Shown here piece after piece: positions 3,319 through 20,703 of a stretch of 38,522 nucleotides of DNA (positions are counted from its first letter, which is position 1; the number at the start of each line of letters is the position of its first letter). This DNA comes from a virus. The stretch lies in the IMG/VR virus record IMGVR_UViG_3300007345_000100, positions 1 through 38,522 of that record, one strand, 5' to 3'. Under the pieces are notes generated by a model. The model ran no database searches. It was not told the origin of the DNA and saw nothing but the letters and a program-made list of their open reading frames with translations. Both the position numbers and the translations under genes were made by a program.

Positions 3319-3753
3319 TTACTTCTTGGCCTTTTCGATGGTACGTCCTGCGAAGTACGCACCGAAGGCTGTGAGCATCAAGACCTGAAGGAGATCGACG
3401 TAAGAGTCTTTCACAGTGAAGGCCACGTTGTCCATGCTGTCAATCATCATGGTGACCATGAACATGCTCATCAAAGCGATCAAGGTGACGGGTCGGATGA
3501 GCTTGGCCAGCTTTACATCGCTTCCCATATCAGCCTTCCATCGCTCTGTAACATTGGCTTGGAATGCAATCTCAGCATCTACCGCTGCCGTCCCCTCATT
3601 GGTATCGACGTCAGGGTCTTTTGCAATCAGGTTCTTGACGACACCCAGTCCGCCGCTGTCGGGGAGCAGGTTACCTACCACGGACAAGACATTGGGTGCC
3701 TTGTCCTTCAACCAAGATCCTAGCTTGGTGTCTTTGATTTTCTTTTCACTCAT
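3319..3753 (-). CDS. holin of the GTA-type three-TM family
   Basis: This 144-residue protein resembles the GTA_holin_3TM family. It has a moderately hydrophobic N-terminal helix (about 20-42), then the family-like segment V-T-E-R-W-K-A-D-M-x-S-D near 68-79 and L-I-R-P-V-T near 85-90, followed by two clear membrane helices at about 87-105 and 118-136, and a charged Lys-rich tail. Such holins permeabilise the inner membrane at a set time so that the endolysin reaches peptidoglycan. It is the last gene of the late transcription unit and shares the cassette with the amidase 4 kb upstream. It ends base-to-base with the convergent + strand module. Recognition is by motif only. Confidence 0.75.
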   Translation of the reverse strand: MSEKKIKDTKLGSWLKDKAPNVLSVVGNLLPDSGGLGVVKNLIAKDPDVDTNEGTAAVDAEIAFQANVTERWKADMGSDVKLAKLIRPVTLIALMSMFMVTMMIDSMDNVAFTVKDSYVDLLQVLMLTAFGAYFAGRTIEKAKK

Positions 3754-3762
3754 GGTTCTGTA

Positions 3763-4128
3763 TTAAAAATCACTCATCAGTATTTCGTCGATGGCTTCTT
3801 GCACGTCATCCATGCTTGCTTCCATCGTCATCATGATGTTGGCTTGAAATCGTTTGACCTCTTCGCCTTCGTTGAACACAACAATGGTTGGCACCACAAC
3901 AATCTTGTGCTCCTGCTGAAGGGCAGGAGCAGTTGCAATGTCCACACGGCTTGTTTCGCAATCGTTCAGGTTCTCTATCCATTCCACTTTGTTTTGGGAA
4001 TTGAAAGATGCGTTGAACTCTACTACGCAGATGCCGCTGTCACATATTTTATCATCCGCTACATCTGCCACAGAGGTGGCCGCTAAGAATAGCGCAGATG
4101 ATGCAAACAGGATTGGTAAGATTTTCAT
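3763..4128 (-). CDS. exported thioredoxin-fold protein lacking the CxxC active site
   Basis: This 121-residue protein begins with a signal peptide (about 1-21, ending A-T-S-V-A), so it should act in the periplasm. The rest reads as a thioredoxin fold: VVEFNASFNSQNK at 35-47 aligns with the usual V-x-F-x-A-x-W-C-G-P-C-K, a central strand-helix follows (R-V-D-I-A-T-A-P), and VVVPT with cis-proline P80 precedes VVFNEGEEV. Both catalytic cysteines are replaced by Asn, so ordinary disulfide exchange is not expected. C29 and C34 sit just before the fold and C57 inside it. It lies between the holin and a membrane coiled-coil protein. I infer a chaperone-like or binding role; a redox role through C29/C34 remains possible. 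Confidence 0.65.
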   Translation of the reverse strand: MKILPILFASSALFLAATSVADVADDKICDSGICVVEFNASFNSQNKVEWIENLNDCETSRVDIATAPALQQEHKIVVVPTIVVFNEGEEVKRFQANIMMTMEASMDDVQEAIDEILMSDF

Positions 4129-4131
4129 TTA

Positions 4132-4416
4132 TCATTTTAATTGATCTATCTTTTCTTCAATACGCTTGATGTCTTCTTTGATTTCCGTGACATCCTCCTG
4201 CGTAGTCATGATTGTTTGACGGACAAGCTGATCCTTCATGTCGAACTCCATGCGTGTGATCTCTGGTGCTAATGGAGCTGGCAGTTCCTTGGCTTCTGCG
4301 ATGTCTGCTTGCAGGGCAAACCACATGGCCACGATTGTACCAACCCCTGCTGCCGCCATGCCTATGGTCTTTAGGTCTAGCGTAATCTTAGTGTCCTCCC
4401 CAATCTGTTGAGCCAT
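4132..4416 (-). CDS. small inner-membrane protein with coiled coil, i-spanin-like topology
   Basis: This 94-residue protein has one membrane helix at about 17-36 (A-A-A-G-V-G-T-I-V-A-M-W-F-A-L), a short Pro-rich linker (PAPLAP) and a strongly heptad-patterned C-terminus (about 66-94, ending RIEEKIDQLK). An N-terminal membrane anchor with a periplasmic coiled coil is the layout of i-spanins, which link inner and outer membranes at lysis. It sits between an exported thioredoxin-fold gene and a predicted outer-membrane protein gene in the lysis region. No lipobox-bearing o-spanin partner is seen nearby, so the spanin reading is inference. A holin regulator or a structural membrane protein are alternatives. 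Confidence 0.55.
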   Translation of the reverse strand: MAQQIGEDTKITLDLKTIGMAAAGVGTIVAMWFALQADIAEAKELPAPLAPEITRMEFDMKDQLVRQTIMTTQEDVTEIKEDIKRIEEKIDQLK

Positions 4417-4417
4417 A

Positions 4418-5452
4418 TCAAATAATTACATAGTTGATGCCGACAGAGAAGTCATGCCATGACCTATCCCAATACTTGTGATATTTACCTTCTGCAAAGA
4501 CACCAAAACTTTTGTTGAATCTTTTACCAAATATAAGGCCCCCAGAGTAATCGACCCATTGACCACTGTTTACAAACCGATGGTAAGAGTATTCACCATC
4601 GGTGTCAAGATGATATGGAATCAAGTTGCCCCAAGTGTGTACCCAGAAGTCCTTTGTGAAGTGATAGTAATCGAAACCCAACACAATTGAATGAACCCAC
4701 TGGTTCCTCAGATCGCCCCTCTTTTTATCTACGTAGTCCTTCAAGACCTCGGGGATGACAACCTCCTCCCAAACGTCGTAGCTGTTTGCGACGACTTCCC
4801 CATCTGGATTGAAGAACTGTCCAGTGTTGACATCTATATTATACCCTTCTTGTATAGCGAGTGAGGTGAAGTGCAACTGATTGTTGTCCAAGACCCACTC
4901 ATTAAGTGGGTCGTATCCGTAGGGCTCAGACAATCTCTGCATGATGCCTGCGTTGAGTGAAAGCTTACCAACCTTCGCCCGAAATCTTTCGGAGGCTTCG
5001 AAGTATCGGACATCAGCAAAACCATCCTGCAAGAACTCTACCTTGGCAATCCATTGATCGGCTACATACCTGAGGAAATGGTCTTGATCGAGATAGTTGA
5101 TGCCCTGCTGTCTTCTGTAGTCACCTTCAAACAGAAACTCAAAGCCACTAACCTTACCAATGGTAGCAGCATCACCGTAGGATTTCTCTGTCCCATTGTA
5201 GAATGTGTTGGCCCTGTTCTCGTATCCAAAGCGGGCAATCTTTCTGATGCCCGCTGTCAAAGAGTAATCGAAAGGCGTCTCTACTATGTCAGTTTGCAAG
5301 CCATTGCCTACAGAAAAAACCTCTGCGTCAGACAGTGAGTTACCTCCGCTGAAAGCTGTGTAGAACGTGGCGAACTTCAAAGCCTTCTTGATCGACTGTC
5401 CCGATGCAGTGATCGAAAAACAAATTAACAAGATGGTGGTGATGTACTTCAT
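4418..5452 (-). CDS. predicted outer-membrane beta-barrel protein encoded by the phage
   Basis: This 344-residue protein starts with a signal peptide (about 1-19, ILLICFSITASG then Q, a common flavobacterial cleavage context). The mature part is rich in aromatic residues and alternating polar/hydrophobic strands (for example QWVHSIVLGFDYYHF, HRFVNSGQWVDYSGGLIFG, SFGVFAEGKYHKYW), ending in the strand-like HDFSVGINYVII. This is typical of an outer-membrane barrel. I do not see the sequence hallmarks of PorP/SprF proteins. The start overlaps the stop of the T9SS cargo gene by ATGA, so the two are probably made together. An altered outer membrane during infection, a receptor change or an export partner are possible roles. 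None is shown by sequence alone. Confidence 0.6.
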   Translation of the reverse strand: MKYITTILLICFSITASGQSIKKALKFATFYTAFSGGNSLSDAEVFSVGNGLQTDIVETPFDYSLTAGIRKIARFGYENRANTFYNGTEKSYGDAATIGKVSGFEFLFEGDYRRQQGINYLDQDHFLRYVADQWIAKVEFLQDGFADVRYFEASERFRAKVGKLSLNAGIMQRLSEPYGYDPLNEWVLDNNQLHFTSLAIQEGYNIDVNTGQFFNPDGEVVANSYDVWEEVVIPEVLKDYVDKKRGDLRNQWVHSIVLGFDYYHFTKDFWVHTWGNLIPYHLDTDGEYSYHRFVNSGQWVDYSGGLIFGKRFNKSFGVFAEGKYHKYWDRSWHDFSVGINYVII

Positions 5453-7581
5453 TGTCTTACGATTCTTTCTTTTGTAATCCTACCTTGATAGCTAGCCATG
5501 ATGACATAGACCCCTGGAGATGGGAGATCGATTCGAGTGTCCTGTGTCTCCACCACCTTCTTGCCTGATGCATCGTAGATGGTAATCACTGTGCCTGTGG
5601 GTGCCTCTACGTTGATGATGTTTTCAGTAGGGTTTGGGAAGAAGTAAGTCATCTCCCTTACATCCGAGGTGATGGAAGACACCTGACCTGCACAGTATTC
5701 GTACTGACTGATGCACACCGCATCCCATCCCACCTCGCAGCAGTAGGGGTCAACCTCAATCACCCACGAGTAGCAGTAGTCGTTGGCCCAGTATGGCTCA
5801 CCTGGACCAGTGATGCATCCAGCGTCGTACAGACACTCTTCGTTGTTGGGTACGTTAGCGTACACGTTGTAGTTGGCAGCGTCAGGGTCCATACACCCAG
5901 GCATAGGCAACTCACAGCTTCCATTGTTGGTGTTGGCCATCGGGTCGTAGTTGATCGCCTCGGGAATGGTGCATCCGTAGATGAACTCAACGCAACTGTT
6001 GTTCTCTGTGTTGGCCAGCTCGTTGTAGTTGAACATGGTGGGGTCAGTACACCCAAACACAACTTCCTCGCACTCTGCTGGATCTGTGGCCGACTCGTTG
6101 TAGTTGTATGCTGTTGGGTCTTGACAACCCACCACCTCAAGCTCGTCACACACCCCGTCGCCATCGGCGTCGTTGATACACTCGTTGTCGCATCCGTAGT
6201 GCTCGATCGGGAAGGTGCAGTCACCGTCTACGTTTGCCTCGGGGTCGTAGTTGCAGGCGAAGCTAAGCGTGCAGCCCTCGATACCAGCCTCGCAGAAGTC
6301 TCCGCATACAGGCACGCCGTCGTACTTAAATGGGAACTTCTTGATGGCATCGGACCACGGGTTGGTCCCGCCCTCCATGAACACACCGCTTGGCCCGTCG
6401 AAGTAGAACCCGCATTGGGATGCGGTTGTCTCTGCGTTACCCTGCGTAAAGAACATGACCCTGACTGCTTCTCCAGAGTACAGAGGGATCTGAATCTCTT
6501 TCTCAAACTCGTCGCTAGGGTACATGGTAAACGGACCCCAGATCTCGTCGCCCTGCTGCACTCCAACCCAGCTACCGAACCAACCATCTCCTGCTCCGTC
6601 CGTAAGTGTCAGAGTAAAGTCACAGTTGTCTTCTGTCTCCAGTGTATTGGCATCCTCATTGAAGTTAATTGCTTGAGGATCAGTGCATCCCAGTATCACC
6701 TCTGTCTGACAGCTGCCGTCATCGATCACGGCACTGGGATCGTACTCTGTAAACCACGAGTCGGTGCATCCCTGAGGGATGGGCGGGAAGCATGGGTCGA
6801 TCACGATAGTATCACTTGATGCTACTTCGTACTGCGTAGTATCACCCACGTAGTACAGCGTCTCTCCACACAGGTTGGAAACAAGCAGGTTCCCATCTAC
6901 TCCTCCATAGCAGCTGCCGCACATACCATCTCCGAAGCTGTCGTACACGTCCACCCTGAACTCCGAACCAACAGGTAGGCACACAGCCTCTACAACGGGA
7001 GCGCCTACAATAGAATAGCCTGACCCCTCAGCAACCACTTCACCGTCTGGGACTGTGACTAGATCCCAGCTGATCTCAGCTGCATAAGTGTCAGGCGTAA
7101 CTGTTACAAGGATGTTGTTGTATCCTTCTTCGCATTGTACGGGAGGGAAGTCGCAAGGTGCAGGAGCGTTGGCCCAGGGGTGATAGTTGATAGCACCCGC
7201 TTGCATACATCCAAAGATGGGTGGTGGACAGGCAAGAACCTCGAAGGGGACGGTCATCTCTGACGCACTGAAGTCATACACCGTGGTGTCTAACTCACAG
7301 GTGTTGATCGAAAACCAGCCCTCCCCGAAGCCACAGCAGATGCCATCGCCAAAAGAATCGTAGATGGTAAAGGTGTACTCACCAAGAGGCAGTGGAAGGA
7401 ACGCCTCGACATACGGATACTCTCCCTGCAAAGGCGCTGAACCTGCAACGATGGCGTCGCTTGAGTCTCTAATAAGCCACGTCGTTTCTTCCCCGTATGC
7501 GTCCCCTTGGATGGAGATGGACACCCAGCCCTCCTGTGCTGTTGCAAACAGAGGGAGTAAAAGAAGAGGTAGGAATCTCAT
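5449..7581 (-). CDS. large secreted surface protein with T9SS C-terminal sorting domain
   Basis: The start is taken at the ATG that overlaps the amidase stop as ATGA, which directly opens a signal peptide (MRFLPLLLLPLFATA, then QEG); the frame stays open further upstream but lacks a signal at its end. The 710-residue product contains beta-rich modules with Y-D-S-F-G-D-G-x-C motifs (two copies) and a related D-G-A-G-D-G-W, eight GC-x-x-P/x-A-x-N-Y modules spread through it, and a calcium-binding-like DADGDGVCDE. It ends in a type A T9SS sorting domain (about 635-710: FFPNPTENIINVE, TIYDASGKKV, ITKERIVRQ). Such domains direct export across the outer membrane by the Bacteroidota type IX system. 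In flavobacteria these architectures are cell-surface adhesins or structural proteins. Here the gene is embedded between the phage amidase and a predicted outer-membrane protein. Many Cys suggest disulfides or metal sites. Its job in infection is unknown. Confidence 0.85.
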   Translation of the reverse strand: MRFLPLLLLPLFATAQEGWVSISIQGDAYGEETTWLIRDSSDAIVAGSAPLQGEYPYVEAFLPLPLGEYTFTIYDSFGDGICCGFGEGWFSINTCELDTTVYDFSASEMTVPFEVLACPPPIFGCMQAGAINYHPWANAPAPCDFPPVQCEEGYNNILVTVTPDTYAAEISWDLVTVPDGEVVAEGSGYSIVGAPVVEAVCLPVGSEFRVDVYDSFGDGMCGSCYGGVDGNLLVSNLCGETLYYVGDTTQYEVASSDTIVIDPCFPPIPQGCTDSWFTEYDPSAVIDDGSCQTEVILGCTDPQAINFNEDANTLETEDNCDFTLTLTDGAGDGWFGSWVGVQQGDEIWGPFTMYPSDEFEKEIQIPLYSGEAVRVMFFTQGNAETTASQCGFYFDGPSGVFMEGGTNPWSDAIKKFPFKYDGVPVCGDFCEAGIEGCTLSFACNYDPEANVDGDCTFPIEHYGCDNECINDADGDGVCDELEVVGCQDPTAYNYNESATDPAECEEVVFGCTDPTMFNYNELANTENNSCVEFIYGCTIPEAINYDPMANTNNGSCELPMPGCMDPDAANYNVYANVPNNEECLYDAGCITGPGEPYWANDYCYSWVIEVDPYCCEVGWDAVCISQYEYCAGQVSSITSDVREMTYFFPNPTENIINVEAPTGTVITIYDASGKKVVETQDTRIDLPSPGVYVIMASYQGRITKERIVRQ

Positions 7582-7997
7582 GAGTCGAGGTGTGAAAACT
7601 TCTCTTGAACGACGAAGCTTGGACAAGCCTTGTTCGAGTATTCATTGTGTCCGTGGATGGAGATGTCTTTCCCAAAAAGACATCTCACACCGTTTACGAT
7701 TTCTTCAAAGGCGCAAGCCTGATCCTCCGACATCGTGTCTTTGGGAAGCATACCCTCATCGCATCCTCCGATGTAGCATACGCCCACTGTTGTTTTGTTG
7801 TGGCCTTTGACGTGAGCACCCGCCTTGTCGATAGGTCGGCCCAACTCCACACTGCCATCAAGTCTGATGACGTAGTGGTATCCAATGTCAGCCCAACCGT
7901 TTCCGTTGACGTGCCAATCACGGATCGTTTCTACGCTGTAGTCTTTGCCCTCGGGTGTAGCCGAGCAGTGCAATACAATTCTGTCAATGTTTCTCAT
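7578..7997 (-). CDS. endolysin: T7 lysozyme-like N-acetylmuramoyl-L-alanine amidase
   Basis: This 139-residue protein is a compact amidase_2 (PGRP-fold) enzyme that cuts the bond between muramic acid and L-alanine. The zinc ligands are H10 in IVLHCSAT, H117 in HGHNEY and C125 in KACPSF. Y40 (IGYHYVI) and K123 match the catalytic Tyr and Lys of T7 lysozyme, and length and motif order match that family. There is no signal peptide, so release needs the holin. The start overlaps the giant virion protein gene by ATGA and the stop overlaps the T9SS cargo gene the same way. T7 lysozyme also inhibits its RNA polymerase, but no phage polymerase is seen here to suggest that second role. Confidence 0.92.
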   Translation of the reverse strand: MRNIDRIVLHCSATPEGKDYSVETIRDWHVNGNGWADIGYHYVIRLDGSVELGRPIDKAGAHVKGHNKTTVGVCYIGGCDEGMLPKDTMSEDQACAFEEIVNGVRCLFGKDISIHGHNEYSNKACPSFVVQEKFSHLDS

Positions 7998-10900
7998 GGT
8001 GTAGCAAATGCTTTTTCTGTTAGAATAGATTCGAGACCTGCCTCAGATTTAATGCCTAAGTAAAAGAAAGCAAAATTAAAGTATGCGTTGTACTCTTCCT
8101 CGGTCATCTCCCTCTCTTTGGCCTTGAGAACAGAGGCGATTTTCTTAGAGCTTTCTTTGGACAATCTACGCATCTCGTTCGCATGCTGACTGTATTGTTC
8201 AGGCATGATGTTTTGCAACAGCTTCTCAGCTACAGCGGGCTTCAAAGCAGACTTGAACTTTGAGACGCTGATGTTTTTGTCTAGCGTTGTCAAGTCGCTT
8301 TCTGCTTGCATCTTCAAGATACGCATGAGCTTGTCAACACCTATGTCTTCGCCAGCTTCAAGGTAAGCTTGAAGCTCTGGGTCGTCACTGAAAGCTTGTG
8401 TCACAAACTCGTATGCCGCAGCCTCTTCCTCACTGGTCAGCGATCTATTCATAGGCATGTCGTCCATAGCCTTGGCAAAGTAGTCCAACTCTTTGACACC
8501 CAAGCCCACAAGGTTAGCTCCGTGTAGTGTTGCCCTCAAGACCGTGCTGATCTGCATGTGCTCTTGATCTTCAGGTCTCACAAACCTTTCGCTTCCTGAG
8601 TTGGTCGTATACGACTTACCATCTCTCTTCAGTCGATCAATTGATGTCGTGATGTCTCTGAACTTTTGTCCCGCTGGCCCTGTCAACCCAAGCAAAGTGT
8701 ACAAAGCTCTAGCCCCTGGCTCTTTTTCATTCTTTGCCATGTCCGCATAGCTGTCTCCATAAGTTGGGACAGCACCACCATACTTTTTGAACAAGGCAAA
8801 CTTGTCTTCTTTTTCGAGTCCAGGGATGTCGTAGTCCGCTTCGTTGAAGAACAAGTGGTAGTTAAAGGCATCTCGAACATTGTCGTCAACCATACCTATA
8901 GATGGAACGGGAAGAGCATCAACCGCAGCACTCACACCAGACTCTTTCAACATTTGAACTGCATCAAACTCCTTCTCTTCGTCATCATCATCACCCATCG
9001 CTTGTTTGACAATCTCGTTGAAGAGTGCCATCGTCATTTTAGATGCGATGTGGAAGGCAAACAAGGACGACATGGTTGCAGCAAAACCTCTGAGTCCATC
9101 CTTTCTTGCTTGTGCATCTACACCCATAAGAAGTCTTCCCACATCCGATGTCAACGACCTCTTTGTGTTGATCGCAAAACTTTGATACGGGAAGAACGCT
9201 TGCATCAAGCTTCGACCAGCACCACCATCTCTTTTGTAAATGGCTGCTGCCATTCGAGCACTTGAAGTGTTCTGATCTTTTTCAAGCATGTTGTCGGCAT
9301 ACGCCAAGGCTTCTGCATTGGGATTGGCTGCTTCGTTCGTCCAATCAATATCAGATGCGCTCGTCACAACACCCTGTTCAATTAAGAAGTCAGCGTAGTA
9401 AGCAAAGAAAGAAGCAACAGCAACCGCCTTATCCGTTGTAGTCAAAGCCCACAAAGACTTGTTTGTGAACGTGTCTCTCAACCGTCGCATTCTAGACCTG
9501 TCAAAGTTTGTGTTGCCTTGGAACGGGTCGATGTTTCCTGCACGGTAGTCTCTCAAAAATGCTGCACTTCTTTTGAGCAACTCGAACTTGTCTCCAGGAA
9601 GCTTAACAGTAGGATCGCTCAAGACCTTACGCTTGCCCTCAATATCTGTCCCGACAAATGTCAATGCAAGGATGCTTGCGGACTCTTGCATGAAATACAT
9701 CATGGAGCTGATGCTCCGCATATTCATGAATGTCGCCAAGCCGACGGTGCCCTGTTTGACAACCTGAACAAAAATCGATCCGAATGCACCAACAACCGCC
9801 GCAGCACGCAAGGATTCGATGGGGTTCAACAATGCCTTACCGCCAACACGAACACGACTGCGGAAGATAAACGGTTCGCTTTGTGTTTCAACCTGCAAGA
9901 AATCCCTGACGTATTGCTTGAGCTGACCACCAGCTTCGTCTTTTACCAAGTTGCCAAACGCTTCCGTTCCAAACGCATACTCCATCGCAAGGATGTCCCC
10001 CAAAGCTGTAGTAATCAACGCATTCTCCCTCAGGGTGTTGTGGTTGATGTCGATGAAATTCAATCCCAAGATTGCTTCACCACCCACAGCCCTTTGCTCT
10101 CTCTCGAAAGTTGCACCAGGAGTTTTCTGTACCCCACCTTTTGATGAGGCTTGCATCCTGCTAACCAATGCATTGCGCAAGGCCATGACAGATTCTACAT
10201 CCTCATCTTTTGAAGTTTTTCTAACCTGGAATGGCGTGTAGTTGTCGAGGACGCCAAGCTCTTTCCCAAGAAATCTTTCTGCAAAGATTTCCAAGTCGGG
10301 CCTAGCTCGTTCGTGCAGATCGACCATAAAGTCCACCATCTCTACAACCTCAGGGCGCCCTGTCTGCACACGGTTTTGCAACGCCTCTAGCGTTGCTTCT
10401 CCTGTAAACAAGAAGTCAAAAGCTTCTTTGAACTGGTCGATCGTTTCTTGAACAGCACTTTCATTTTGCTCTATGTCCTCGATTGTAGCTTGCATAGAAT
10501 CACGCAAGGCTTTATACCATGCCGCTTGCTTTTCTGCAAGACGCTGCTCAAAATCCTCTTGCGTCCTAGAGGCAGCACGAGCCTCTTCAACAAACTCTTT
10601 TGGCATCTGACGAGACATGCTGTATATCTGCGACAGTGCTTGACTTAGCTTCGACGTAATGTCTGTTTTGCCCTTGAGAGAAAACTTCTTGTTGATCTCG
10701 TCAATCTTCTCTTGCAGTGCGTTGGCAGTTTCCAAGTGCCTTTGTTCAAAAGCATTGATAGCCATGATCACGTCTTGCAATCCGATCGCCACCTTGATTC
10801 GAGCAATGTCTCTGTTGCTCACACGGAAAAGATTCCTAAGCAGACTAGACAAGTTATCCAACACACCAAGAACGGCTGTTCGCTTTGACGAAATACCTCT

Positions 10901-13900
10901 TTCTGTCAGTTTCGTGATCTTATCGGCGTAATTGATGCGCCCCTTGGTGAGTGCAGCCAAGTATCCGAGTCCAAAAGTTCTGCCATTGACGAGGTAGTCA
11001 TTGAGCTTGTACTCGATCGCCAAGAGGTGGTGCTTCTCAAGCTTGTCTAATCTTTTACGAACTTTGTTAAAGACCTCGTCGTCTTCAATGTTGGCGTTTT
11101 GAGGCAAGCCCATGATCAAGCGGAACCCTGGGTCGGCAAGGATAGCCTCAGCATTGAAAAGCATCAGAGGCATAATGCCTTCGTCAATGATCAAAGATTT
11201 CTTTAGATCAACCAGTGCCTTCTCCTCTTTGGCCAACTCCAAGTAGATGGTCTCGAGATCGTCAACATTACGTGGGTCAAGACCCAGCTTTTCCGCCATC
11301 TTGTTGACTCTCTTCTGCGTGGCACTAAGCCTGCTCTCGAAGAACTTCTTTAAGATAGCTTCGTACTCCTCTTCAAAGGTGGTCTCTTCGCCCTTCAAAA
11401 GCTTACGCTCTACGGCTCTCTCGGCCTTAGCCCGTAGCTGCGCCTGTTGCTGCGCTTGCTCGATTGCTTTGAATGCATCGAGCTGCGCCTGCAATCCTTT
11501 GACCTCATTCAACTGAGTGGCATCGAACACAAGGTTGCCCTCCTCATCCTTGGCAAACCGTCCACGGCGCATGTTGTTGTTGACCGTGTTGAGCAAGTTC
11601 ATGAACGCCTCAAGCTCCTCCAAAGGAATCAAGGACGCCTTGATGCGGGACAAGGCTAATGCAAGATCAGCGTATGTCGTGAAGTCCCGTTGCTTTGACT
11701 TTCTCTTCAACGTGCTTTGGAACTGACGAATAGTCTGCAAGTTTTTGAGGTGCCTCTCCATAGCACCCCTGGCATCTTGCTCATCAAAGATGGCAGCCAA
11801 CTTATCCAGGTGCGCATCGATGTACTCTAACTCGTTGCCCTTCAACTTCTTAGCTGACGAACGAGACAGCTGAGACATGACCTTGAAAAACTCTGTCAGT
11901 TGCTTTACGGTGAACACCTTGGATGCGCCTTTGTCCTTGGCCATCCGATCTTTGATAAGCTTGCGTGCCTCACGGATAAACTGCTGCACCGTAGACACTT
12001 TGTTTTTCAAAGCGTCCAGCTCCTCTCTCAGTTTCTTTGCCTCGGTAGATAGCTTGTTCTTTTCTCTTCTAATCTTAGAGACAACCTTGCCTTGCTCCGT
12101 GCGCCCGACTCTTCGGCCCCGAGCAAACTGTACTGCCTTCTTGTATGTTTCCTCAGCGTCCTTTTTGCTCATGCCAGAATCCTCTAGCACCTTCAAGACT
12201 TCTTCTTTCTTGGGCTTGAACAGTCGTATCTGATCGGTCTTTTCAAGAACGAGCTTTTTCTTTTTGCCTCGACCCACCTGCTTGAGTGTAAAGCCTGGCT
12301 CAGTCATGATATCCGCCACAGTGCTTACGATGCCCTGACGTTTCGTGACAGACTCAACAGTGGTGTCTGCATCGGACAGAGACTCGATGCTGTTGCGGAT
12401 CAAATCAATCTGGCTCTCAGAGAACACACCCCCTACGTCGCCAGCAATCGTTTTGATCAGGGCTGGCTTGGACAGAGCTGCGATATCTGCGCCCGCCTTG
12501 GCCAGTTGCTGTACGATTTCTGTCGGCACGATGTCAACGACATTGAACAGCGAGGTAGGTGTACCTACAAACTTGCCCAGGATAGAGTGCTGATAGGTGT
12601 CGTGAGCGTCAGAGTCCTCTTGTATACCCGTAGGCTCCAACACGCCTACGATGTCACCCGTTTGGGCATCAATCTTTTCAAGGTATTCGTCTCTAAGCAG
12701 TCGATTGAAGACATCCTGCTTTGGCACGCCAAGCTCGTCGTGCAAGAACGTATGAAACTCAAGGGATGGCTTGACGCCCATGCCTTGGTGCAGCATGTTC
12801 TGCACAAATGTTTTGCGTGATGGGTGATCGACAACGTCTTTGCCTCGGCTGTTCAAAGCCTTGAGCACGCCCATCCACTTCTTTGTTTCTGTCTTGGTCT
12901 TCAGGAGAGAGTTTGTGATTTGCACAAACTCATCAAACGACCCCTCTACAATCTCGACGCCACCAAAGGTCTTGCCGATATTTCTTTTCATCCCAGCTTC
13001 GATCTCCTGGATCAACACCTTGGACGTACCCTTGGAGAAGTTGTGTGCCGACTTGGGTGAGCCAGACATCAGGAAGATGTAGTCAGCTCGACCAACCCTG
13101 TCATTCAATGTCTTGGGAGACAAGCCTGATGCCCACACCACATCGTTGTCTTGGTTTTGCTGGTCGGTACTAAATCCGATGCCTCCCAAAACCTGTGCTT
13201 CAACGCCCGTATCAGGGTTGCTGTACGTGCCTCTCTTCAACTGGTCAGCCATCCACACCCATACGACAGGGTTGCGATTGTTCTCAGCCTTGAAGTCAGA
13301 CAAGAGACTGGCAATGTCTACCGTGGGTTGGTTGGCCATGTAGGTTCCTGCCACATTGATGGCTTGCTTCTTGGCCTGGACTTGGGCGGGATCAACAGGA
13401 AGCCCCTCTTCAGTGACAGATTCTTGCGAGTCCAACCCTGGCTGCACACTGTTGCCGTCCTCATCTACTTGAGCTTCAAGTACCGCACCCTCCTCTTCGT
13501 CGATGGCTGTTGGGCCCTCTTGCAATCTTAAACCAGCTTCGATAATCGCTTCGGTGTCGGCTACAGCCTCACCCCTAGCCATCGCTTGGGTAGCGGCGTC
13601 GATGGCTGCGACAACGGCCTTGAGCTTTGGGTCTTTGAAAGAAGTGCCAAAGGTGCGAGACACAAACTCCTTGAGCCCTGAGATCAAGCCCGCCTTGAAA
13701 TCAATACTCAATGTGCCCGATGTAATCAACGACTTGATCTCTGTCAAGAGCTCGTCTGCCGCAGTATCGTTTTCCGCAACGATTTGCATCAGAAGCTTTC
13801 TCTGCATAGCAGGGTCTGCCTCAGCCAAAGCAAGGACTGATCGTTGCTCTTCAGGCAGGTATGCCGCAATGAATCTAGAGAACACATCGATGTTGGGAAT

Positions 13901-16900
13901 CAGACGTGCCAGCGTTGCAGCAAGACGTCTGGTGCCTGCCTTGGTATCCTCTTGATTTTCGTTCTGCAAGGTGGCCTGGTGGAACGCTTCGTGGTATGGC
14001 GTGTTGGCCTCTAGTGCAGGCAAGAACAAATGCACCTCGGCGCTTTGCACTGTCCCGTCGTCCTTTCTCTTGTACACCACATGCACACCTCTAGCAAAAC
14101 GCTCCCCTGTAGCTTTTTCATACGCTTTCGTGGTGCCGTGCAGAAACACCTTGCCACCTGTCCCAGCTTCAGTAACTGTAGCAATAATGTTCTTGATGTT
14201 TTGCAGTCCACGAATGATCTGCTCTCTATTTGAGAAGCGGGTGGTTACAATTTTACCTGAGGCGATGATTCTGTCGATGACAGAGCCAGCATTTTCTGAC
14301 GTCAGTTCAACACTATTGCCCCTACCAACCCTACCGTATTCAGTGATATCTGGGTCAGTAGAGCCCACCTCTCTGATGACAGCTTGCACCTCAGGATCTT
14401 CCAAAGCAATGTCTACAGAGTTTTCGTTCTGAGCATATTTGCTTTCGATTTCAAACTTCTTCTTGAAGCTTTCTTTAATCTGATTCTGAAGAAGGTTTAT
14501 TTGCGCCTCGTAAGTAGAGACCGCAGCTTTGTTATTAGCTGCTTTGGCTTGTGCAAGTAGACCTCTAAGCTTTTGAGCTTCTTTACGAGCCCCTGTAATG
14601 TCTTGATTGTGTCCGAAAATAGCTTCCGCATCTTCGTCGGAAACATTTGCAAGGAACGATAAGTCTCTTGCAGCCACTCTATGCTGTTCTTCTTGAACAT
14701 CAAGCATCTTTCTTTTAACCTCATCTCTTTCTTCTTTTGTTGTTGCGTTTTTGAACTGCTCACTGAGCTCTTCATATCTGTTTTGCAGACGTATCTGATC
14801 TTTCAAGCGGAACTTGCTGGCCACATACGACGGCGCTCGAACGATGCTAGTTTGTACGCCTCCTGCTGCGACACCCACCACGAAAGAGTCGGCTACCTGA
14901 GCCCACGATACAGACAACTGTGCCTTCTGTATCTCCTTTGCAGCGATGCTTTTTTCAAGACGGTCTTGCACTTCAGAGGCAATGCCTGGCGTCTCAATCT
15001 TTTTCTGAATGTCCTCGATCTCACGATCCAGTGCCAGCCTTTCCGCATAGTTCCGCAATCCCTGATCGGCAACAGAGACCAAGCCCTCCTCAATACCTTC
15101 CTCTAAGAACTTAAACGCTCTGTTCGTTGTGACTTTGTCAAAGACATTTTTTGCCTGCAACAAGACACCCTTTTCGGCGGGGACAGTACCCCACAAAAGA
15201 GCCTTACCGCCACGCCCTGCCAGTGGCTTGAGACCCACGGCTTTACGGATGGCGTCAGCGGAACCTAATTCCGCCTTCATAAACAGCTTTTCTGACAGGT
15301 ACTCTACGCCACCAGCCAACGTACCAAAGGCCAACTTTTCACCCGCAGTAAGATTTGAATTTTGGTTCAAATCTTCTATCGTAGAGCCTGCGCTACCTAG
15401 TGCAAAGCTGATGAGTGTGAGTTCAGTGGCACCTGTCGCCAACCCTGCGATCTGTAGACCAATCTGTGGGAGCGCCTCGGCCACCATGCTTGTAAACATG
15501 ACGCCCCGTGCATACTCGTCCCCAAAGTTTTGTCCGAAAACACCTCTTTGAATTTGCTCCAGCGTCAATCCCTTTTTAAGATTGTTGGCCTGTGACATGC
15601 CCGCTGAGAGCTCCCCGAAGGTAGGAGCTTGATCAGACTCTACACCTAAGATTCCTGCGTAAAACTCTTGAAAGGAAGGGACAGCAGTATCGCCAAAAAT
15701 ATTAAGCGCACTATCCTCTGGGGTGGCTTCTAATACCGCATCGACAAAATTAAGCGTGCCCGAAAACACCATACCAGCCGTCTTGAAAAGGTTAGGTGCG
15801 ATAAGATCCTCTTCCAACTGACGGCCTAAAAACTCTCCTGACGTTCTGTACGCTTGCAGAGCCATGTCGCTTTCCATAGCAACCTGATCCAAGGCTACTT
15901 GACCAATAAGCTCAGAAATGTTGTAAGCTCTACGCTCCAAGCCCAACACCTCATTCGCTTCGTTGTAGGTGTTGATGATGTCCGTGCGTCTGCTTGCCAA
16001 ATCTGCTTGCACTTCTTGGCGCTCCTCCTCTGTCACTGCGGTGTTGAAGCGATCGACGAAAGCATCAAGCTCTGTAATGGCTGCTTTCTTTCCGTCCTCT
16101 GCTTGCACGACCTCATTGCGTGCGTTCCAATACCCTGCAATCTGCTTGTACTTGTCCTCTGAAAACTCAATGTTTCGACGTTCGTAGTAGTCTGATGCCT
16201 TCTCAAACGTATTGATTTTTTCAGGCATGTTGGGCTGAATGGCAGTCAGCTCTTCGTCAGTTTGAGGGACGTAAGCAGAGTTGACGTTGCCCAGTTGACC
16301 CTCATAGAAGGGCACGCTCATACCCTCCTCATCTTCGACCTCGGGCAAGGCTTGAACCTGCTCGTTGGTGTACTTGCCGATACCAAACTCATTGTTGATG
16401 ATCGACGTCTTGAGGTTCTCTTTTGACGTAGAAAGCTCAGCACGATCTACGATCAAGCCAGCACTCAACATGACATCGTTGATATCCTCTGTAGTCACTG
16501 ATGTGCCTGTAAACAGAGGAGTGTCTTTGAGGGTGTCAAATATTTCTTTTGAAAAACCCTCCCTCTCCTGTGCGCTTAGGGCGTCGCCCAATACGCCTCT
16601 ACCCTGCAACCACTTCTGCGTCTCTTTGAAGACAAAGTATTCTCTTTGGTTGGCCTGATACTCAGATGGCGCTGAGCCCTCAGTACCGTATGCCTCAATA
16701 ACTGACTGAGTGTCAGTCTCATACAGCTCTTGTATGTCTTCTGGCGTGAACTCTCTGCCACGTCCTGTCTCTTCAGCGGACATGGTAGCCATCGCCTCGT
16801 AAGGATCTTTCGCCTCACCAAACAGCGATGAGAGATATCCAGACTTGTTTTCTTCAGCTTGCTTTCTGGCGCTTTCTAAGTCTTGCACGGGCTCGAAGCT

Positions 16901-17167
16901 TGAATCGCCTGTAAGCGATTCTAAGCCTGCAACATAGTCGGAAGAGAACGCCGACTCTTTTTTTTTTGGATTGATGCCTGACAAATAGATCAGGTCTCTT
17001 TGGTCACCCTTGAACCCAGCACTGTTCATCACGGTCATGATTCTGTTGAAATCATCCGTCTGACCCATCTGACGAATCAAGTCTTCTTTGGTGCCGAGAT
17101 ATCCTTGCTCTTGAAGGACGGTGTAGATCTGATCAATCCGATCTACGTTGTATGATCCGTTTGACAT
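7994..17167 (-). CDS. giant 3057-residue virion-associated polyvalent protein with HExxH peptidase motif
   Basis: This is one intact 9.2-kb frame. Residues about 10-66 hold two copies of a Y/M-x-x-L/M-x-x-x-G-Y/F-x-G-x-x-x-D-L motif. A Gly/Ala-rich hydrophobic region near 560-640 looks membrane-active. HGTTKAYE (near 1020) and TPYHEAFHQ with H1059, E1060 and H1063 form a zincin-type peptidase motif. A coiled coil with many Lys and Glu lies near 1680-1800. The C-terminal part (about 2400-2730) has further hydrophobic segments, a FFPYQSFAIN motif and an acidic DDDDEEKE patch. Such patchwork giants are found as internal or ejected proteins of podovirus-like and crAss-like phages. The position after two other internal-virion-like genes and before the lysis genes matches T7 gp16, which enters the host envelope during DNA ejection. 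Function is inferred from layout and motifs. Confidence 0.7.
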   Translation of the reverse strand: MSNGSYNVDRIDQIYTVLQEQGYLGTKEDLIRQMGQTDDFNRIMTVMNSAGFKGDQRDLIYLSGINPKKKESAFSSDYVAGLESLTGDSSFEPVQDLESARKQAEENKSGYLSSLFGEAKDPYEAMATMSAEETGRGREFTPEDIQELYETDTQSVIEAYGTEGSAPSEYQANQREYFVFKETQKWLQGRGVLGDALSAQEREGFSKEIFDTLKDTPLFTGTSVTTEDINDVMLSAGLIVDRAELSTSKENLKTSIINNEFGIGKYTNEQVQALPEVEDEEGMSVPFYEGQLGNVNSAYVPQTDEELTAIQPNMPEKINTFEKASDYYERRNIEFSEDKYKQIAGYWNARNEVVQAEDGKKAAITELDAFVDRFNTAVTEEERQEVQADLASRRTDIINTYNEANEVLGLERRAYNISELIGQVALDQVAMESDMALQAYRTSGEFLGRQLEEDLIAPNLFKTAGMVFSGTLNFVDAVLEATPEDSALNIFGDTAVPSFQEFYAGILGVESDQAPTFGELSAGMSQANNLKKGLTLEQIQRGVFGQNFGDEYARGVMFTSMVAEALPQIGLQIAGLATGATELTLISFALGSAGSTIEDLNQNSNLTAGEKLAFGTLAGGVEYLSEKLFMKAELGSADAIRKAVGLKPLAGRGGKALLWGTVPAEKGVLLQAKNVFDKVTTNRAFKFLEEGIEEGLVSVADQGLRNYAERLALDREIEDIQKKIETPGIASEVQDRLEKSIAAKEIQKAQLSVSWAQVADSFVVGVAAGGVQTSIVRAPSYVASKFRLKDQIRLQNRYEELSEQFKNATTKEERDEVKRKMLDVQEEQHRVAARDLSFLANVSDEDAEAIFGHNQDITGARKEAQKLRGLLAQAKAANNKAAVSTYEAQINLLQNQIKESFKKKFEIESKYAQNENSVDIALEDPEVQAVIREVGSTDPDITEYGRVGRGNSVELTSENAGSVIDRIIASGKIVTTRFSNREQIIRGLQNIKNIIATVTEAGTGGKVFLHGTTKAYEKATGERFARGVHVVYKRKDDGTVQSAEVHLFLPALEANTPYHEAFHQATLQNENQEDTKAGTRRLAATLARLIPNIDVFSRFIAAYLPEEQRSVLALAEADPAMQRKLLMQIVAENDTAADELLTEIKSLITSGTLSIDFKAGLISGLKEFVSRTFGTSFKDPKLKAVVAAIDAATQAMARGEAVADTEAIIEAGLRLQEGPTAIDEEEGAVLEAQVDEDGNSVQPGLDSQESVTEEGLPVDPAQVQAKKQAINVAGTYMANQPTVDIASLLSDFKAENNRNPVVWVWMADQLKRGTYSNPDTGVEAQVLGGIGFSTDQQNQDNDVVWASGLSPKTLNDRVGRADYIFLMSGSPKSAHNFSKGTSKVLIQEIEAGMKRNIGKTFGGVEIVEGSFDEFVQITNSLLKTKTETKKWMGVLKALNSRGKDVVDHPSRKTFVQNMLHQGMGVKPSLEFHTFLHDELGVPKQDVFNRLLRDEYLEKIDAQTGDIVGVLEPTGIQEDSDAHDTYQHSILGKFVGTPTSLFNVVDIVPTEIVQQLAKAGADIAALSKPALIKTIAGDVGGVFSESQIDLIRNSIESLSDADTTVESVTKRQGIVSTVADIMTEPGFTLKQVGRGKKKKLVLEKTDQIRLFKPKKEEVLKVLEDSGMSKKDAEETYKKAVQFARGRRVGRTEQGKVVSKIRREKNKLSTEAKKLREELDALKNKVSTVQQFIREARKLIKDRMAKDKGASKVFTVKQLTEFFKVMSQLSRSSAKKLKGNELEYIDAHLDKLAAIFDEQDARGAMERHLKNLQTIRQFQSTLKRKSKQRDFTTYADLALALSRIKASLIPLEELEAFMNLLNTVNNNMRRGRFAKDEEGNLVFDATQLNEVKGLQAQLDAFKAIEQAQQQAQLRAKAERAVERKLLKGEETTFEEEYEAILKKFFESRLSATQKRVNKMAEKLGLDPRNVDDLETIYLELAKEEKALVDLKKSLIIDEGIMPLMLFNAEAILADPGFRLIMGLPQNANIEDDEVFNKVRKRLDKLEKHHLLAIEYKLNDYLVNGRTFGLGYLAALTKGRINYADKITKLTERGISSKRTAVLGVLDNLSSLLRNLFRVSNRDIARIKVAIGLQDVIMAINAFEQRHLETANALQEKIDEINKKFSLKGKTDITSKLSQALSQIYSMSRQMPKEFVEEARAASRTQEDFEQRLAEKQAAWYKALRDSMQATIEDIEQNESAVQETIDQFKEAFDFLFTGEATLEALQNRVQTGRPEVVEMVDFMVDLHERARPDLEIFAERFLGKELGVLDNYTPFQVRKTSKDEDVESVMALRNALVSRMQASSKGGVQKTPGATFEREQRAVGGEAILGLNFIDINHNTLRENALITTALGDILAMEYAFGTEAFGNLVKDEAGGQLKQYVRDFLQVETQSEPFIFRSRVRVGGKALLNPIESLRAAAVVGAFGSIFVQVVKQGTVGLATFMNMRSISSMMYFMQESASILALTFVGTDIEGKRKVLSDPTVKLPGDKFELLKRSAAFLRDYRAGNIDPFQGNTNFDRSRMRRLRDTFTNKSLWALTTTDKAVAVASFFAYYADFLIEQGVVTSASDIDWTNEAANPNAEALAYADNMLEKDQNTSSARMAAAIYKRDGGAGRSLMQAFFPYQSFAINTKRSLTSDVGRLLMGVDAQARKDGLRGFAATMSSLFAFHIASKMTMALFNEIVKQAMGDDDDEEKEFDAVQMLKESGVSAAVDALPVPSIGMVDDNVRDAFNYHLFFNEADYDIPGLEKEDKFALFKKYGGAVPTYGDSYADMAKNEKEPGARALYTLLGLTGPAGQKFRDITTSIDRLKRDGKSYTTNSGSERFVRPEDQEHMQISTVLRATLHGANLVGLGVKELDYFAKAMDDMPMNRSLTSEEEAAAYEFVTQAFSDDPELQAYLEAGEDIGVDKLMRILKMQAESDLTTLDKNISVSKFKSALKPAVAEKLLQNIMPEQYSQHANEMRRLSKESSKKIASVLKAKEREMTEEEYNAYFNFAFFYLGIKSEAGLESILTEKAFATP

Positions 17168-17189: not shown

Positions 17190-19853
17190 TCATTGTGTCA
17201 ACCTACCGACATATCGACCTCTCAACTGACTTGCAGAAAGATCTCTTTCGTACAGTTTATCACTAACATTACCGCCCTGCACTTGATAGACTGTTTCTGT
17301 TTTAGGCTTTCCATCTCTACCCATTACTGGATTGCCTTTTCTATCTTTTACTTCTACCGTCTTCACTCCAATAATGATGTCAGAGTGAGATCCATACCCC
17401 TTTTCCTTTCCATACTTACCCCTTCCTTTAGCATCTCTTTCAAACTCCCTGTAAGTCTGCGGGCCAAGCGGATTTCCGTTCTCGTCTTTTCTTCCTTTGA
17501 ACAGTATATCGCCCGCTTGGTACTTCGTCTTTCTAACCAACTCTTCGGCCTTGTAGTTTCCTTCACCTTTGAAGCCTCGTCTGATGTAATCTGAGTGCCG
17601 TGCGCTACCCTCAAATGTAGGGTCAAAAGCTTTTGCAAGCTTGCTTACAGTCGCTGCGCTCCAAGCATGTTCGGTTGCGTCTGCCCCTTCTCTTGGATCG
17701 AATCCAACATCAGCAAATAGTTCTTCTTCAATATATTTTTTCGCAATAGGATTGCTCTCGTCTCTGTACACACCTAGCTCAGCGTCATACAAAACATTCT
17801 TGAGTTCACCAGCAGCAACACCCAATCTATCTTCCGCTGAAATCTCTTGCCCAAGCTGATCAACCTCCTCTTTTGCAATTTCCGGTTTCTTGAAACGCCT
17901 CAGGCGAGCCCTGTTTGATTCTACTTCACGAGCAAGCTCCTCTTTAGACATGGAGGCGTAATCCCCTCTTTTGCCTTCCGCAGACGGTACCGCTGTATCG
18001 GCAGGTAATTCAGCCCCAGCCGCTGTTGGGTCAGGGGTTGCTGTAGGTGTTTCTGTAGGTGTTCCTGTAGGTGTTCCTGTTGGGTCAACGGAGGCAACCA
18101 CTCGACCTTCTGGAGTAATCTCCAAAGGTTCTGTTGTTGGGAGTCCTGTTTCTTCAGCCGTTGGCACTGCAAGACCCTCTGCGCCCTCCTCAGTTTCTTC
18201 AGCTCCAACGCCCTGATTCAAGCCGCCCAACGCTGTCTGTGCTGCTGTAGGTGTAGGCGTAGGGGCTGGCGTGGTGCCTGTCCCTGTTGAGGTTACTCCA
18301 ACTTGTCCCTTACCTAATTCAATCAGCTCACTATAGCTTGGGTTTTGCTTGTTCTTTGGCGCCATCCTGCTGAGCTGTCCTTCCAACTCTGTAAACAACT
18401 CAAGGTTGTTTTCTCGTGTGATTGTCTCGGCTCCTGATAGAAGCAAATCGATCAGGCTTTGCTGCTGTGAAGAACGATCAGCCTCTGGAGTTGCAAGCAG
18501 CTTATCCAACAGGTCTCTGTTTCTGCCAATCTTGTATCCAGCCACTTGACCTTCTGGGTTCATGTACACGTTCTCTACCTGCACGGCTGTGTTTCCAACG
18601 TCCACGGCATTTAGGCGTGCCGAAGTCGGGATGTCAAACACCTGCCCAAGCTCTGCAACCTCTACGGATTGAACAGTGTTGTTCTCCCCATAGTTTCTAG
18701 GAGCAAACGGAACGAATGCTGGCCCAAGCTCTGTTGCTGTTTCTGTCGTGGTGGCTTCAGGAACACTGAATCTAGACTTCGCCCTTTCGTATGCGTTCTT
18801 TGCGTGCAAGTTCTGTGCTTCACGGAACTTCATGAGGTTGTCCTCTGTCACAGTAAATGACCGACCCCCTGCGGTAGTCATCTCTTGTCCCACAAGTGTT
18901 TTCAATTCATCCTCCGAGACGTCATATTGAGCATTGCCATCGGCATCAAAGCCTGTAATCTTGGTGATAGATCGACCTTCTACATTGAGATCCTTGAGCG
19001 ATGGAGAGTAGATCTGATCAACAGCGTCCAAGTCTTTTTCTACAACGCCTCGGTTTGGAATGTTCTTAGTCTTGTATGCCTCAAGAGCAACAGCGTTCCA
19101 CATGGTGCCCTCTCTCTTGGCGTAGCCGTTGTATTTGTCAGCAAAGTCTGTGGCAAAAGCATTTTGATCCACAAGGACTCCAGAGCTAACCCCTGCTGTA
19201 TTTCTGCCTTGATACGAGTCCACAAAAATTGTATCCGACACCTTGCTTGACAACTGAGTGTATGCACCTTCGACACTGCCCTGAACCACAGGCAGATTGT
19301 CAGGATTTGAAGCAGTAACTGCTGACTCAAAATAATCGACACTTTGGTCTCCCTGGACAACTCTAACCTTATCTCCCACCACTTCATAAGCAGGGGCTTG
19401 ACCAAACTTTTGGTTGAAGAGATTTAGGTTGAAATCTCTCAACCCAGCCTCAGCCAAATCTTGATCTCCTCTGATAGAGAGGTTTTGCTCTAGAATAAAT
19501 TTACTCCCAAAGACAGCGTCCTGAGCAATGCCGCTGTACTGCGACTTGGCCGCAGACACCCTTTGCGCATTGGCGTCAGAAGGGTTTTGTTTGAAGTCAA
19601 GCTCTGTCTGCTGCCAGACATCAAGAGCTTTTTGAACGCCCTCCTTGTAGTAAGGGTTGATGTTCCCAGGGGCCGTAGTCACCCCAGCCGTCCCGATGCC
19701 AAGCGTCTTCTCTTTGTCCAACTGTTTCTGCGCACGCTCCTGCACCACCCCAAGGATGGGATTCATGAAACGACCTGCCGCCTCCCTTCCGATCGCACCA
19801 TAGTCTGGCAGAGGTGCAAGGAATCCTGTTTTGAACTGTGGACCGTGAGACAT
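17190..19853 (-). CDS. internal virion-like protein with C-terminal DUF2272/NlpC-P60-like domain
   Basis: This 887-residue protein has a helical N-terminal part (MSHGPQFKTGF, ALDVWQQTELDFKQN), a middle domain, a Thr/Pro-rich linker with short repeats (about 535-545 and 590-606), a helical segment (about 640-690) and a C-terminal domain. The latter shows H-A-W-S-A-A-T-V-S near 728-736, A-G-D-I-L, S-H-S-D-I near 822 and G-G-N-V near 860, the order of motifs in DUF2272-type cysteine-peptidase-fold proteins. The residue expected as nucleophile is Ser, not Cys. A peptidoglycan-cutting or binding activity in the ejectosome is plausible. The gene corresponds in position to T7 gp15. The first 233 bp are overlapped, in another frame, by the end of the preceding gene. 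Confidence 0.6.
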   Translation of the reverse strand: MSHGPQFKTGFLAPLPDYGAIGREAAGRFMNPILGVVQERAQKQLDKEKTLGIGTAGVTTAPGNINPYYKEGVQKALDVWQQTELDFKQNPSDANAQRVSAAKSQYSGIAQDAVFGSKFILEQNLSIRGDQDLAEAGLRDFNLNLFNQKFGQAPAYEVVGDKVRVVQGDQSVDYFESAVTASNPDNLPVVQGSVEGAYTQLSSKVSDTIFVDSYQGRNTAGVSSGVLVDQNAFATDFADKYNGYAKREGTMWNAVALEAYKTKNIPNRGVVEKDLDAVDQIYSPSLKDLNVEGRSITKITGFDADGNAQYDVSEDELKTLVGQEMTTAGGRSFTVTEDNLMKFREAQNLHAKNAYERAKSRFSVPEATTTETATELGPAFVPFAPRNYGENNTVQSVEVAELGQVFDIPTSARLNAVDVGNTAVQVENVYMNPEGQVAGYKIGRNRDLLDKLLATPEADRSSQQQSLIDLLLSGAETITRENNLELFTELEGQLSRMAPKNKQNPSYSELIELGKGQVGVTSTGTGTTPAPTPTPTAAQTALGGLNQGVGAEETEEGAEGLAVPTAEETGLPTTEPLEITPEGRVVASVDPTGTPTGTPTETPTATPDPTAAGAELPADTAVPSAEGKRGDYASMSKEELAREVESNRARLRRFKKPEIAKEEVDQLGQEISAEDRLGVAAGELKNVLYDAELGVYRDESNPIAKKYIEEELFADVGFDPREGADATEHAWSAATVSKLAKAFDPTFEGSARHSDYIRRGFKGEGNYKAEELVRKTKYQAGDILFKGRKDENGNPLGPQTYREFERDAKGRGKYGKEKGYGSHSDIIIGVKTVEVKDRKGNPVMGRDGKPKTETVYQVQGGNVSDKLYERDLSASQLRGRYVGRLTQ
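18037..18084. repeat. four tandem 12-bp units encoding a Thr/Pro/Gly linker
   Basis: Four near-identical 12-bp units of the form GTT(T)NCTGTAGGT lie head to tail inside the 887-residue virion gene. Read on the - strand they encode T-P-T-G/E/A repeats. A second, looser Thr-Pro run lies at about 18242-18280. They are a flexible linker before the C-terminal domain and a likely site of length variation between strains. Confidence 0.85.
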
Positions 19854-20703
19854 CTTTTTCGAATTTCGTAAGCAGTTTCAATACAAATTTGTGCAAAGGT
19901 GAGTCACCCTGCTTGGCCAACCTCATCATCTTTTTTGATTGTTCTGGATTGAAGACGTATTCACCGCCCGTCAGCTCGATGCCAACAGAGTCACCTTCTT
20001 TATCGACCAACGTCAATGGGTTGGTGTTGTGAGAAAACGATCCAGGCGTTTTCGCAACCTTGTATCCCTTCTTGGCAACCTTCCCTCCTTTATCCATTCC
20101 CATCCCAACACCAATGACACCGCCGACGATGCCTCCAACACCACCAGCGATGTTGGCGAAGTTTTGAATACGCTGTTGCTCGGCCTGGGCTACACGGGCC
20201 TCGGCCAACCGCTGAGCATCAAAGCCAAACTCCATGTCTCGTGTAGACCGAGCCTCTTGCCTTGCAATGGTTCTGTCTTGAGCCAAGCCTAGGTCTTTCA
20301 AAGCTGCTGTCTGCAATCGCTGCTGAGTCAACACCTCCTGTCGCTGCGCCGTCTGAGCCTGTTGAGTGGCTTGGGCTAAGGCCCCAAGCCCACGGGCCCC
20401 GAACTGTGAAACGGCCTGCGTGGTGGTGGCCAAAGATCTGTTGATGTCCTCCAGCCTCTGTTGCATAAGGCGTTGATCGTAAGCCTGTTGCACCTGCTGA
20501 TAGAAAGCACTGGGAGTAGCTAGGGAAGGCTGTGCCGCTTGTAGATCCGCAAGGTTTTGTTGTGCGGCATCTAGTCCTTTTTGAGTCCGTCTCTCAAGAC
20601 TTCTCTGATCGAGCGCACCCATGATGCCTCCCGCCAACTGGCCTACTCCGCCAATGGCTGACCCTAAGGCCTGTGCTTGTCCTGCTGAAAATGTATTCGA
20701 CAT
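19621..20703 (-). CDS. T7 gp14-like internal virion protein; last ~80 codons doubtful
   Basis: The frame is 360 codons, but the credible protein covers only about the first 280. It begins with an Ala/Gly-rich segment (GSAIGGVGQLAGGIMGAL), continues as long Gln/Ala-rich helices (20-190), a glycine-rich hydrophobic stretch (NIAGGVGGIVGGVIGVGMG), and an ELTGGEYVFNPEQ motif typical of the C-terminal part of small phage internal-virion or tail proteins. It then reaches HKFVLKLLTKFEK, a natural-looking end. Beyond this the frame runs 233 bp inside the start of the next gene and yields a Trp/Cys/Gly/Arg-rich sequence that looks like an out-of-frame reading. Either the real stop is missing through an indel at the AAAAA run (19855-19859), or a frameshift joins the two genes, or the overlap is real. 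Position and size fit T7 gp14. Confidence 0.6.
   Translation of the reverse strand: MSNTFSAGQAQALGSAIGGVGQLAGGIMGALDQRSLERRTQKGLDAAQQNLADLQAAQPSLATPSAFYQQVQQAYDQRLMQQRLEDINRSLATTTQAVSQFGARGLGALAQATQQAQTAQRQEVLTQQRLQTAALKDLGLAQDRTIARQEARSTRDMEFGFDAQRLAEARVAQAEQQRIQNFANIAGGVGGIVGGVIGVGMGMDKGGKVAKKGYKVAKTPGSFSHNTNPLTLVDKEGDSVGIELTGGEYVFNPEQSKKMMRLAKQGDSPLHKFVLKLLTKFEKDVSRSTVQNRIPCTSARLWCDRKGGGRSFHESHPWGGAGACAETVGQREDAWHRDGWGDYGPWEHQPLLQGGRSKSS

Follow-up and report, generated by a model that had tools for sequence, protein, structure and literature searches.

A conserved gene cassette of mostly marine phages pairs a predicted type IX secretion cargo with a predicted viral outer-membrane barrel

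Results

The window, that is, the whole stretch of DNA analysed here, is the complete IMG/VR record IMGVR_UViG_3300007345_000100 of 38,522 bases, and this record may itself be a genome fragment. Its structural genes have matches among the PHROG virion families, in one case with a crAss-like muzzle C-terminal domain, and its head gene is related to the head genes of Flavobacterium, Cellulophaga and Maribacter phages. The gene under study, a candidate cargo of the type IX secretion system (T9SS), occupies 5449..7581, as placed by the first-pass annotation made from the sequence alone, and lies on the minus strand. It is preceded by an N-acetylmuramoyl-L-alanine amidase gene (7578..7997, minus), which is endolysin-like (phrog_822, E 1.8e-50; PF01510), and is followed on the same strand by genes for a predicted outer-membrane beta-barrel (4418..5452), a strongly conserved 94-aa protein with one N-terminal transmembrane helix and a coiled coil (4132..4416), an exported thioredoxin-like protein of 121 aa (3763..4128) and a holin (3319..3753; phrog_3427) that adjoins the cassette. 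The ATGA overlaps that had been described between the cargo gene and both the endolysin and the outer-membrane protein gene are present. No conserved CxxC was found in 24 aligned thioredoxin-like proteins, and a role as an active thioredoxin for the cargo disulfides was rejected on this ground. No match to a spanin family was found; the coiled-coil protein resembles a spanin only in its layout of helix and coiled coil. Directly upstream of the endolysin gene, 7994-17167 encodes a 3,057-aa protein, a size seen for internal virion proteins. Two long minus-strand open reading frames at 17190-19853 and 19621-20703 overlap by 233 bases, possibly through a frameshift or a mis-called start, and positions 1-35 resemble by eye a tRNA gene 3' end that is truncated at the contig boundary, although ARAGORN found none.

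The cargo is a modular 77-kDa protein of 710 aa with a pI of about 4.05 and 39 cysteines. Its signal peptide (aa 1-16; 7534..7581, minus) reads MRFLPLLLLPLFATA, with predicted cleavage at ...ATA/Q, and a signal peptide is present in every family member that has its own 5' end; signal peptides and topology were called from sequence and simple hydropathy. A predicted beta-sandwich domain follows (aa 17-122; 7216..7533, minus), which weakly resembles Ca-dependent carbohydrate-binding modules (2xfd: Z 7.1, rmsd 3.0, 86 residues aligned, from a long model of low pTM). The region of aa 124-586 (5824..7212, minus) carries modules interleaved with two further beta domains. Eight modules of the form GC-x-x-x-A-x-N-Y had been reported here; the number holds if degenerate copies are counted, but the true pattern is GC-x4-A-x-N-[YF] and has six strict copies, as compared to 0.00 and 0.02 in shuffled proteins for the strict and the full count. 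These modules are common to the cargo and many proteins of Flavobacteriales, including surface proteins of T9SS type. A cysteine module, CITGPGEPYWANDYCYSW...YCCEVGWDAVC...C (aa 589-630; 5692..5817, minus), contributes columns that are among the most conserved of the family alignment. The AlphaFold2 model of the cargo body has low global confidence (pTM 0.42), and a Foldseek search with the full model matched only the C-terminal domain (CTD) confidently and gave no function for the body.

The CTD (aa 648-710; 5452..5640, minus) is of T9SS type A. It scored 31.7 bits on TIGR04183 (cut-off 23) and 36.0 bits in a six-frame search. The first-pass annotation had staked its T9SS reading on the CTD scoring above the family cut-offs, which held for TIGR04183 but not for Pfam PF18962 (Por_Secre_tail), where the score of 25.6 bits missed the gathering score of 27 by 1.4 bits. 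Among 54 aligned cargo relatives, 42 matched TIGR04183 and 41 matched PF18962 at E <= 0.01. AlphaFold2 folded the last 65 residues into a domain of seven strands, for which block pLDDT values were mostly 81-90 and which superposed on the CTD of RgpB (5ag8: Z 9.5, rmsd 1.8, 64 aligned) and on that of NucA bound to the T9SS translocon (8glk: Z 8.1). The predicted structure has the Ig-like seven-strand fold of T9SS CTDs.

Tail and body of the cargo differ in their relationships. The tail in the window is 40-48% identical to those of relatives whose bodies are 91-92% identical, and 67% identical to that of one relative with a body of only 41% identity. Such a mismatch is what modular exchange of tails, independent of the body, would give. 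Most of the cargos that were negative for TIGR04183 share a C-terminal tail, LL-x-VTDLLGR...LFYIYDDGTVEK. Of 60 relatives of one Flavobacteriales MAG, 42 have this tail as well, with 2-48 copies in each genome; in the loci read, the copies lie at the extreme C-terminus of proteins, several of them with visible signal peptides, and SprA is present in 35 of 40 tested relatives of that MAG. This recurrent tail, also written KELLKVTDLLGRE...NQ-LFYIYDDGTVEKRI-IE, was read in L260-L265 and in the phage cargos of L047, L052-L055, L057, L058, L060, L061, L063 and L073. Two phage proteins with it, scanned singly, gave no match in NCBIfam, and it looks like an undescribed type of sorting tail. A second, shorter T9SS-tagged protein was seen in tandem or alone in L092, L101, L103, L135, L039 and L254, with a length of about 411 aa in the latter two. 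In L258, a short signal-peptide protein (6379-7047, minus) has a single GC module, and its type B-like tail scored 33.2 bits on TIGR04131, slightly below the cut-off of 35; this phage has the coiled-coil and thioredoxin-like genes with the signal-peptide protein on the opposite strand, and the barrel was not detected.

The barrel protein (344 aa) has a signal peptide and a conserved insert of about 75 residues. Its AlphaFold2 model is a 12-strand membrane barrel (pLDDT 76), and the top 50 fold matches were almost entirely membrane barrels, mostly bacterial outer-membrane proteins; an even-stranded barrel with a signal peptide is the general criterion for this class, to which the protein is predicted to belong. 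Foldseek and VIA returned the general barrel fold and no identity. The sequence family was found in none of Pfam, NCBIfam, PHROG and PDB, the PorP/SprF models matched neither the window barrel nor 53 family members at E <= 1, and tblastn did not find it in 50,697 phage records. It strongly matches the viral model A0A516LKJ4 (E 4.6e-24), which carries no name. The family is viral: it occurs in at least 558 viral stretches and in only four loci among about 85,000 bacterial and archaeal genomes. Phage replication genes and an endolysin accompany the barrel in L080, and phage-like genes lie on L257, which is another contig of the Maricaulis MAG that contains L081 and L082. In the aligned sets, conservation is higher for the barrel (54-96% identity to the window) than for the cargo (31-87%).

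Misassembly at 5449 or 7581 had been named as one finding that would undo the annotation. Two other IMG/VR contigs are identical to the window over 6.2 kb spanning both cargo junctions, with no mismatch, and the same cargo-barrel junction is found in relatives whose proteins are 79-87% identical. Relatives of the cargo, down to about one third identity, were found in at least 109 viral stretches, from which 77 distinct loci were retained, and dN is far below dS in the cargo bodies. In 40 genomes searched, there was no full-length counterpart of the cargo outside a phage contig. Given the identical junctions in separate contigs and the viral relatives, both misassembly and a loose host passenger were rejected. 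Maribacter phage Panino, Cellulophaga phages phi38:1 and phi13:2, Flavobacterium phage elemoE and the uncultured phage ctfjg026 have neither the CTD nor the barrel. None of the cultured phages tested has the cassette; the viruses with it are uncultured and mostly marine, and they appear to infect Flavobacteriales.

The four genes travel together. The barrel gene lies directly downstream of the cargo gene, and the 4-bp ATGA overlap between them recurs in 46 loci. Gene clustering around 78 loci recovered the barrel in 72, the thioredoxin-like protein in 66, the 94-aa coiled-coil protein in 61 and a holin in many. The gene order takes three cyclic forms (cargo-barrel-coil-Trx, barrel-coil-Trx-cargo and coil-Trx-cargo-barrel). 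A tagged cargo was nearby for 119 of 122 distinct barrel genes (154 barrel loci), the other three lying at contig ends, a figure that is partly selected because half of the barrel loci were found via the cargo; for loci fetched by the barrel alone, it was 77 of 78. The apparent exceptions include contigs that stop right past the coiled-coil gene (L160), cut the barrel (G112) or end at the barrel (L081 and L082), and one locus (G100) with a 175-aa signal-peptide protein that has a CTD-like end and no family match. In L257, the barrel, coiled-coil and thioredoxin-like genes were present, and reading 14 kb by eye revealed no tagged cargo.

An unbiased sample was obtained from 39 viral contigs of at least 40 kb chosen by the capsid gene alone. 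Cargo tail and barrel were both present in 15 of these, the tail only in 1, the barrel only in 2 and neither in 21 (Fisher p 8e-8). Truncated contigs inflate this association, as the genes lie side by side, and the subset of at least 55 kb gives the safer figure (both 9, tail only 0, barrel only 1, neither 12; p 2e-5). The coiled-coil and thioredoxin-like genes occurred in one identical set of 18 phages of the 39. In roughly half of the capsid-related phages none of the four genes is present, and on the capsid tree the trait changes at least eight times. Among independent pairs, the barrel followed the tail in about 6.4 of 8 with none contrary (median p 0.03), and the long-contig subset, with four pairs, was not significant. 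The annotation had argued that the gene is not a loose passenger, and its inheritance together with the barrel and two further genes makes the coupling stronger than was then apparent. Cassette genes were also seen in another phage type (L080, L259 and L255); L080 and L259 (G037) have RNR, DnaB-like helicase and UvsX-like genes in common, and G037 additionally has the phrog_138 major head protein and PhoH.

Discussion

Our results indicate that a phage gene with the two signals of a T9SS substrate belongs to a conserved four-gene cassette. The export signals, the fold, the co-inheritance and the tail exchange pattern are shown by computation. Export of the cargo by the host T9SS, as the first-pass annotation had suggested, is very likely, because the family score and predicted fold of the CTD, the retained export signals and the exchange of tails that match those of candidate hosts all point to it. 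The cargo would cross the inner membrane by Sec via its signal peptide, after which the host T9SS translocon would recognise the CTD; given the signal peptide, a role as a virion protein was considered unlikely. It would then work with the downstream barrel, the one-helix coiled-coil protein and the exported thioredoxin-like protein, and the four products are predicted to lie in four layers of the envelope, i.e., the inner membrane, the periplasm, the outer membrane and the surface. The barrel is most likely the outer-membrane partner or anchor of the cargo, and expression is probably late, as the cassette adjoins the lysis genes. The cargo may serve any of the purposes that the first-pass annotation had proposed (blocking other phages, masking receptors, aiding release or adhesion); the most likely benefit is a change at the surface of the doomed cell and of the debris it leaves, where progeny and rival phages would fail to bind. 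We infer the Sec step, the T9SS translocation, the display or release, the anchor role, the timing and the purpose from these features, and we give a probability of about two in three to the reading as a whole, in which the cargo leaves a Flavobacteriales host by the T9SS, acts with the barrel and the two other products and changes the surface of the doomed cell. A bolder version, which we hold tentatively and think somewhat improbable, is that the four proteins form a mobile module that is specific to viruses, spans the envelope and occurs in at least two unrelated phage types, and that this module captures the T9SS for a viral surface structure, with tails swapped to fit the host and the barrel as a new kind of shuttle or anchor.

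The position of the cassette is also what a lysis aid would have, because holin and endolysin adjoin it in the window and an endolysin adjoins it in the second phage type (L080). The coiled-coil protein, with its N-terminal helix and coiled coil in the layout of inner-membrane spanins, could then serve as such a spanin, and the barrel and the surface cargo could weaken or cross the outer membrane late in infection. We consider this unlikely, since roughly half of the phages related by capsid have none of the four genes, yet all must lyse, and a modular T9SS-secreted protein of this mass would be an odd spanin, in addition to the missing family match. The same absence suggests that the cassette is accessory rather than essential for lysis, and for this reason a surface change, through shielding or exclusion, is preferred over lysis with modest confidence. 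A comparably small chance is given to the cargo being an adhesin or a coat that binds sugars, in which case the phage would gain by having infected cells or debris stick to particles or to cells nearby. The carbohydrate-module resemblance of the N-terminal domain and the GC modules shared with Flavobacteriales surface proteins fit with it, but the former match is weak and comes from a model of low confidence. That the cargo is a recent capture from the host or an assembly chimera, functionless for the phage, is highly improbable: its modules are indeed found in many Flavobacteriales proteins, but the many viral relatives, the identical junctions in separate contigs, the low dN relative to dS in the body, the co-inheritance with three other genes and the lack of a full-length counterpart outside phage contigs in the 40 genomes all argue against it.

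The cassette has partial precedents. Phage lambda encodes Lom, an outer-membrane protein that is placed in the host; the cassette would resemble it in putting a phage outer-membrane protein into the host and differ from it in the T9SS and the secreted partner, both of which Lom lacks, and its sequence is unrelated to the phage barrel as far as compared. Type A cargo usually relies on PorV of the host, so that in principle no dedicated partner is needed. The analogy with SprB-SprF suggests that the barrel may be a dedicated surface partner. In bacteria, a type B cargo gene is commonly followed at once by a SprF/PorP-like gene, the product of which acts as a shuttle or anchor (PMC12618676, PMC9143113). 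The phage cassette likewise has a cargo gene followed by an outer-membrane barrel gene, but its cargo CTD is type A and its barrel matches no PorP/SprF model, and the pair is therefore filed as one that may work like the bacterial pairs, not as one of them.

T9SS-tagged cargo of phages as such is already known. Three variable genes of Cryophage (an endoglucanase, a GH39 and a PA14 gene) carry T9SS type A sorting domains, for which host-system hijacking and superinfection exclusion or competition were proposed (PMC7468147, 2020). The sorting domains are of the same type as in our phages; the difference is that those are three variable genes of one phage, and here one conserved cargo slot is joined by a viral barrel and two further genes in many marine phages. 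In gut phages, T9SS sorting domains were described near BACON-domain ORFs (PMC6949934, 2019), likewise on phage proteins, and no cassette or outer-membrane partner was described there. In the open-access literature searched, we found neither the cassette nor the viral barrel family nor the tail exchange described. The conserved cassette is, as far as found, new, and so would be the use of a host secretion system by phages as a conserved route for their own proteins, of which only isolated T9SS-tagged genes had been described. If confirmed, the T9SS would be a route exploited by phages in marine Flavobacteriales, infection would alter what these bacteria display and release, a second class of T9SS partner could come to light through the viral barrel, and the cargo tails could help to predict the hosts of uncultured phages. 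As a separate observation, an unverified 13-kb phage clone from human faeces (L166, MT836089.1) has a 710-aa frame whose T9SS type A tail scores 44.9 bits.
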